From Alphaproteobacteria bacterium (GTDB taxonomy: Bacteria; Pseudomonadota; Alphaproteobacteria; MPNO01; UBA2964), in assembly GCA_012103315.1 (NCBI GenBank), contig WLWZ01000001.1:1-64000 (forward strand): 64,000 bases of DNA, given 5' to 3'. The first letter of the stretch is position 1; every line of letters begins with the position of its first letter. Both the position numbers and the translations under genes were made by a program. This document shows positions 47,863-48,071 of this stretch, piece after piece. The notes under the pieces were generated by a model. That model did no database searches. It saw only the letters and a list, made by a program, of their open reading frames with translations, and was not told the origin of the DNA.

Positions 47863-47943
47863 TCGATTGCGAAGGGTGGTTCTTAGACGACACCACCGAG
47901 TTTGAATTATGGGCTAAAAGTTGGCGTTTGGCGCCGACTTTAT

Positions 47944-47973
47944 CTTGTTCTTTTTGCAGCGGATCCCCATATA
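47944..47973 (+). promoter_or_regulatory. Sigma32-type heat-shock promoter of hsp20
   Basis: CTTGTT at 47944-47949 and CCCCATATA at 47965-47973 with a 15-bp spacer match the RpoH consensus (CTTGAA and CCCCATNTA). Transcription would start near 47980, leaving a leader of about 90 bases before the hsp20 ATG. Confidence 0.75.
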
Positions 47974-47979
47974 AAAGGC

Positions 47980-48071
47980 CGCATGGTGCCCGAATGGGGC
48001 CAAAAGGGCATTTCGTTAGGGACCAAACTTACGGAATGTCAGACCATAACCTGCTCATTTGGAGAGGTGCA
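47980..48071 (+). ncRNA. ROSE-like RNA thermometer in the hsp20 leader
   Basis: The leader can fold into three hairpins: 47984-48002 (TGGTGCCC with GGGGCCA), 48009-48038 (8 bp, CATTTCGT with ACGGAATG) and 48050-48067. In the last, CCT-G-CTC pairs with GAG-AGG, covering the ribosome site GGAGAGG, with one unpaired G (48053) opposite it. That bulged G within a YUGCU-like segment next to the Shine-Dalgarno is the hallmark of ROSE thermometers, which open on heating to allow small-Hsp translation. Confidence 0.7.

Follow-up and report, generated by a model that had tools for sequence, protein, structure and literature searches.

A probable lineage-specific ROSE-type RNA thermometer in the hsp20 leader of an alphaproteobacterium

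Background

The hsp20 gene in the window (the whole 64,000-nucleotide stretch of DNA analysed here) raises the question of whether a small heat-shock protein is controlled by heat twice, through an RpoH-dependent promoter and through an RNA thermometer that covers the Shine-Dalgarno (SD) sequence. An earlier note on this DNA had proposed such dual control and had called it little described outside the Rhizobiales, a view contradicted by Pseudomonas ibpA, for which dual RpoH and ROSE control is experimentally established, with mRNA made under many stresses and protein only after heat (PMC3669281), and by the more than 40 ROSE-type candidates predicted in 2005 in alpha- and gammaproteobacteria, as recounted in PMC4166951. 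RNA thermometers are hard to recognise, being lost by sequence models. Here we conclude, with a probability of roughly 0.83, that the leader is a lineage-specific ROSE-type thermometer behind an RpoH-dependent promoter. This reading rests on conservation and covariation, and the opening of the leader on heating is inferred.

Sequences compared

Conservation within the genus was assessed in five genomes. The class-wide set comprised 104 distinct alphaproteobacterial hsp20 leaders from relatives and named genomes (Azospirillum, Magnetospirillum, Rhodopila, Belnapia, Thalassospira, Jannaschia and others), with 179 other SD-bearing ORFs from the same loci as controls. Covariation in the SD hairpin was scored on an ungapped subset of 28 sequences with four-nucleotide loops (loop-4); it replaced a MAFFT alignment in which loops of differing length had put the SD arms out of register. 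A covariance model of this hairpin was built from the loop-4 leaders, with the window, its paralogues and the Rfam ROSE sequences excluded.

Locus and promoter

Direct reading of 47944-48071 gives, in order, CTTGTT, 15 nt, CCCCATATA, a leader of about 90 bases and the ATG of hsp20 (Table 1). As in ROSE-like elements, this leader is the 5' UTR of a small heat-shock gene, the product carrying an HSP20 domain. The start codon is secure because the N-terminus (MTRxSLFNSPFLLGFD) can be aligned in relatives, despite a reading frame that is open upstream as far as 47829. Hsp20 homologues at 36-43% identity also occur on IMG/VR viral contigs (L033-L056).

Table 1. Features of the hsp20 locus, in window coordinates
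Feature	Position	Strand	Basis
-35 element CTTGTT, sigma32 (RpoH)-type	47944..47949	+	direct reading; genus conservation; consensus match 4/6
-10 element CCCCATATA	47965..47973	+	direct reading; 95% genus identity
Hairpin I, GGU-G-CCC GAAU GGG-GCC, bulged G47988	47985..48001	+	genus conservation, covariation
Linker without conserved sequence	48002..48049	+	low genus identity
Hairpin II, CCU-G-CUC AUUUG GAG-AGG, bulged G48053, sequesters SD	48050..48067	+	99% genus identity, class-wide covariation
SD GAGAGG	48062..48067	+	spacing to ATG 48072
hsp20, small heat-shock protein, 157 aa	48072..48545	+	Pfam HSP20 57.9 bits, E 1.2e-15

The promoter read in the earlier note, CTTGTT-15-CCCCATATA, was recovered and is conserved in the genus, the CTTG of the -35 element being identical in all five genomes. 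Measured against the sigma32 consensus CTTGAA-N(13-18)-CNCCATAT (PMC3669281), CTTGTT-15-CCCCATAT is mismatched solely at the last two -35 positions, and the CCATAT form of the -10 element recurs before hsp20 and clpB throughout the class. Promoters of the RpoH type precede 51 of the 104 hsp20 leaders (49%), compared with 4.5% of control ORFs. Within the source genome the pattern CTTG-N17-20-CCCATAT was at chance level, with four occurrences against five for the reversed pattern. RpoH itself is encoded in the genome (356.7 bits). Four RpoH-like sigma factor matches were seen in all (G000:C2:664715, C19:147446, C2:649064 and C15:275098), one of them above the curated cut-off. Transcription probably starts at about 47979-47981, and the sequence points to its being RpoH-dependent. 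Directly before the -35 element, between divergent genes, lies an 11-pair inverted repeat, AAAGTTGGCG...CGCCGACTTT (47917-47941); a scan found no excess of this terminator-like repeat over shuffles.

Leader structure within the genus

The last hairpin of the earlier note, CCT-G-CTC (48050-48056) against GAG-AGG (48062-48067) with one bulged G48053, formed in nearly all leader folds between 25 and 50 C, leaving the SD 94-99% paired. When folded in a 214-nt context, the SD was about 30% free. Of 500 dinucleotide shuffles, however, 39% closed the SD equally well by SD opening energy and 16% matched the total fold energy in stability, and the single-sequence fold is therefore no evidence. Upstream of the SD hairpin the folds vary with the chosen ends and the temperature; the three hairpins originally described were thus not robust, and comparison supports two, 47985-48001 and 48050-48067, within the two to four that characterise ROSE-like elements.

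Identity among the five genomes was concentrated in the promoter elements and the stems: 100% in the -35 element, 95% in the -10 element, 97 and 100% in the two stem arms of hairpin I and 99% in hairpin II. The promoter spacer (55%), the hairpin I loop (45%) and the linker (54% over 48002-48048) have drifted; within the leader, only that loop is less conserved than the linker. Nearly invariant stems around a free loop in hairpin I point to an RNA structure. Its outer pairs covary over 74 leaders (for example, 82% paired, compared with a shuffled mean of 47% and maximum of 62%), and its shape is that of hairpin I in Rfam ROSE_3 and ROSE. Hairpin I had not been singled out in the earlier note.

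Comparison across the class

Of the 104 hsp20 leaders, 78 have the strict anti-SD motif U(U/C)GCU ahead of the SD, compared with 3.4% of control ORFs; for a relaxed form of the motif the figures are 98 of 104 and 10.6%. When the final 52 nt were folded without constraints, the motif G was bulged in 52 of the 104. Pairs that had no part in the choice of register covary as well: u1-n3, for example, is paired in 91 of 97 leaders (shuffled maximum, 84%) and occurs as C-G, U-G, G-C, A-U and U-A. In the loop-4 subset, seven of nine hairpin II pairs have changed on both sides. Covariation scored 0.360, compared with 0.201 when shuffled (0/500 as high) and 0.12-0.174 in slid registers; such counts are inflated by relatedness, but the slid registers, which keep the same relatedness, score less than half as high. 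Every sequence in this alignment has the bulged G, although its presence was a requirement of the motif search by which the rows were chosen. At least two hairpins with a bulged G, in the pattern Y-G(bulge)-C, are found in 78 of the 104 leaders, compared with 4.1 in shuffles. As is typical of ROSE-like elements, the hsp20 SD in the window is imperfectly paired, one G of the anti-SD strand (G48053) bulging out between the helices CCU-AGG and CUC-GAG. Judged by sequence comparison, the evidence for a predicted bulged-G hairpin at the SD is far beyond chance, and this putative leader design is widespread in Alphaproteobacteria and not peculiar to the source genome.

Relation to Rfam ROSE families

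No match to Rfam ROSE was obtained even at E<=10, whether the window, the 1-kb region or the bare leader was searched, so the search proposed in the earlier note came back empty and the leader scores below the gathering thresholds of RF00435 and RF02523. RF00435 likewise found nothing in the source genome, but control genomes were equally silent, which makes this negative uninformative. By comparison, five loci referred to here as Rfam-ROSE-like match Rfam ROSE end to end at 37-42 bits (threshold 45), and our hairpin II model, built without them, locates their SD hairpins at 13.1-17.9 bits. The same model locates the SD hairpin of the genome's second hsp20 at 18.4 bits; the Rfam ROSE alignment of this leader (L001 1282-1381, G000:C14) covers all 94 positions, with a sub-threshold score of 28.8 bits. 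On the window the model gave 10.5 bits (E 1.7 in 64 kb). The window leader is thus unmatched by Rfam ROSE and low in the hairpin model because its letters differ.

The anti-SD of the second hsp20 is the canonical UUGCUC, and the gene has a CTTGAA...CCTATAT promoter of its own. Other matches of the hairpin model in the source genome had no convincing placement before genes. One of them, at L159 (G000:C14:107263-107289, minus strand; 16.6 bits), is a ROSE-like hairpin, UUGCUC-AAUU-GAGGAG, just before a 385-aa frame resembling a decarboxylase, and could be a chance occurrence.

In the class the typical pairing is UCGCU/GAGGAG and in the window's genus it is CUGCU/GAGAGG: the SD change from GAGGAG to GAGAGG accompanies the anti-SD change from UCGCU to CUGCU, so that, in the two pairs adjacent to the bulge, C-G has become U-A and U-A has become C-G. 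Within the set of 104, only the window's family of genomes carries CUGCU. ROSE-like elements are defined by U(U/C)GCU opposite the SD in their 3' hairpin (PMC3669281), a motif that the window leader lacks. ROSE-G, published in 2025 from leaders of ABC transporter genes, has CUGCU as its hallmark and, facing the first bulged G, another one in the SD strand (PMC12857270); the window carries the hallmark (48051-48055), but its GAG-AGG leaves no base between the helices. It therefore fits neither published motif exactly. The core of the earlier reading, an RpoH promoter and a ROSE-type leader with a bulged-G SD hairpin, is well supported by conservation and covariation, with the corrections that the anti-SD is CUGCU and that Rfam ROSE gives no match.

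Predicted melting and alternative readings

In the MiniROSE thermometer, weak pairs open on heating, U79-U97 and then G83-G94 (PMC8346122). The window helix has neither a U-G wobble nor a G opposite the bulge, which are the weak points reported for ROSE-like, ROSE-G and MiniROSE hairpins. A slipped register, in which G48053 faces A48065 and a U-G wobble forms, is possible, and we infer that it might supply the missing weakness. Alternatively, the helix could be too stable for a thermometer, acting as a constant brake on hsp20 translation and leaving heat control to RpoH-dependent transcription only. The genus swap to pairs with no wobble and no G opposite G favours such a brake, as does nearest-neighbour folding, in which the SD is 1.2% free at 25 C, 2.8% at 37 C and 3.7% at 42 C. 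The loss of the terminal stem at 42 C anticipated in the earlier note is thus not predicted, with the SD still 96% paired, but neither is it for the five Rfam-ROSE-like loci (4-31% free at 25 C, 9-36% at 37 C and 12-40% at 42 C). The window lies below these loci at every temperature, but in proportion its SD is predicted to open no less between 25 and 42 C, about 3-fold compared with 1.2- to 2.7-fold. Because the Rfam-ROSE-like loci too are predicted not to melt, folding is unable to decide on a thermometer, and folding at 25-60 C was dropped as a discriminator of melting, these loci faring no better. A simple brake, moreover, would not need the bulged G, which is invariant in the model alignment, albeit one whose row selection required it. 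Weighing these points, we regard a constant brake as unlikely.

More improbable still is that the conserved sequence is recognised by a protein or a small RNA that represses or activates the hsp20 mRNA, and is not a self-sufficient sensor. Two hairpins sharing a bulged-G motif could form a tandem protein site, and the conserved nucleotides of ROSE were, according to PMC4166951, initially taken for a transcription-factor site; but here the loop sequences vary freely while the stems covary, hairpin II overlaps the SD, and the homologous ROSE design acts by melting (PMC8346122). A fortuitous complement to a conserved SD, without regulatory meaning, would suit the unremarkable single-sequence fold and the lack of promoter enrichment in the genome, but is contradicted by the comparison from genus to class and by the covariation counts, and we give it almost no weight.

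The preferred reading, in which an RpoH promoter precedes a thermometer of the ROSE type, would operate as follows. At growth temperature hairpin II would hold GAGAGG, the SD, paired to CCU(G)CUC, the anti-SD, and keep ribosomes from binding. The bulged G48053 would keep this helix weak, so that it would open on heat shock and allow translation of hsp20, the transcription of which would additionally be raised through RpoH. Hairpin I would be a conserved companion, its role probably lying in the folding or stability of the leader.

clpB leaders and wider implications

The clpB gene of the source genome is preceded by an Rfam ROSE_3 element above threshold (43.9 bits; L153 1501-1570, G000:C2:309781-309850). 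This element is conserved in the genus (also L167, L168, L169 and L154) and stands directly behind a CTTG...CCATAT promoter. In four genus genomes it precedes the ATG of a short frame, MSLKGVARYG(V), with synonymous differences between genomes, and in three of the four this frame ends across the clpB start; judging from this arrangement, translation of clpB may be coupled to a heat-controlled short frame. Class-wide, at least two bulged-G hairpins occur in 18 of 30 clpB leaders (L170-L199), compared with 1.4 in shuffles. In these clpB leaders the second hairpin is frequently found not at the SD but about 35-50 nt before the clpB start codon.

A 2014 review tied ROSE always to small heat-shock genes (PMC4166951); the clpB element suggests that in this group ROSE-type control extends past small heat-shock proteins. 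We propose tentatively, at somewhat less than even odds, that the tandem two-hairpin bulged-G module is a class-wide heat-shock leader common to hsp20 and clpB, the SD hairpin of which can drift between ROSE-like and ROSE-G-like forms by compensatory changes, with the genus (CUGCU, one bulge) as an intermediate. If true, this intermediate would link ROSE-like and ROSE-G elements as one evolving family.

The curated Rfam models miss the window leader and nearly all of the related class-wide set, and it is base-pair covariation that identifies the leader. With the joint swap of anti-SD and SD in the genus, the letters of the putative thermometer change and its bulged-G shape is kept. The genus variant offers a natural test of whether a bulge suffices for heat sensing without a wobble or an opposing G.

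Comparison with known thermometers

The closest known systems are the ROSE and ROSE-like elements (RF00435 ROSE and RF02523 ROSE_3; Bradyrhizobium hspA, and ibpA of Pseudomonas and E. coli), with which the window shares a small heat-shock gene, several hairpins, an RpoH-type promoter, the shape of hairpin I, and a 3' hairpin that sets the SD against a CUC-type anti-SD with one bulged G. It differs from them in having CUGCU and not U(U/C)GCU, an SD of GAGAGG in place of GAGGA, neither a wobble nor a G across from the bulged one, a long unconserved linker between the hairpins, and no Rfam match. Like ROSE-G, it has a CUGCU anti-SD, a bulged G and no U-G wobble; unlike ROSE-G, it has nothing opposite the bulged G, and the gene is hsp20 and not one for an ABC transporter. 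With fourU thermometers it shares an SD sequestered in a hairpin, but no run of four U residues faces that SD.
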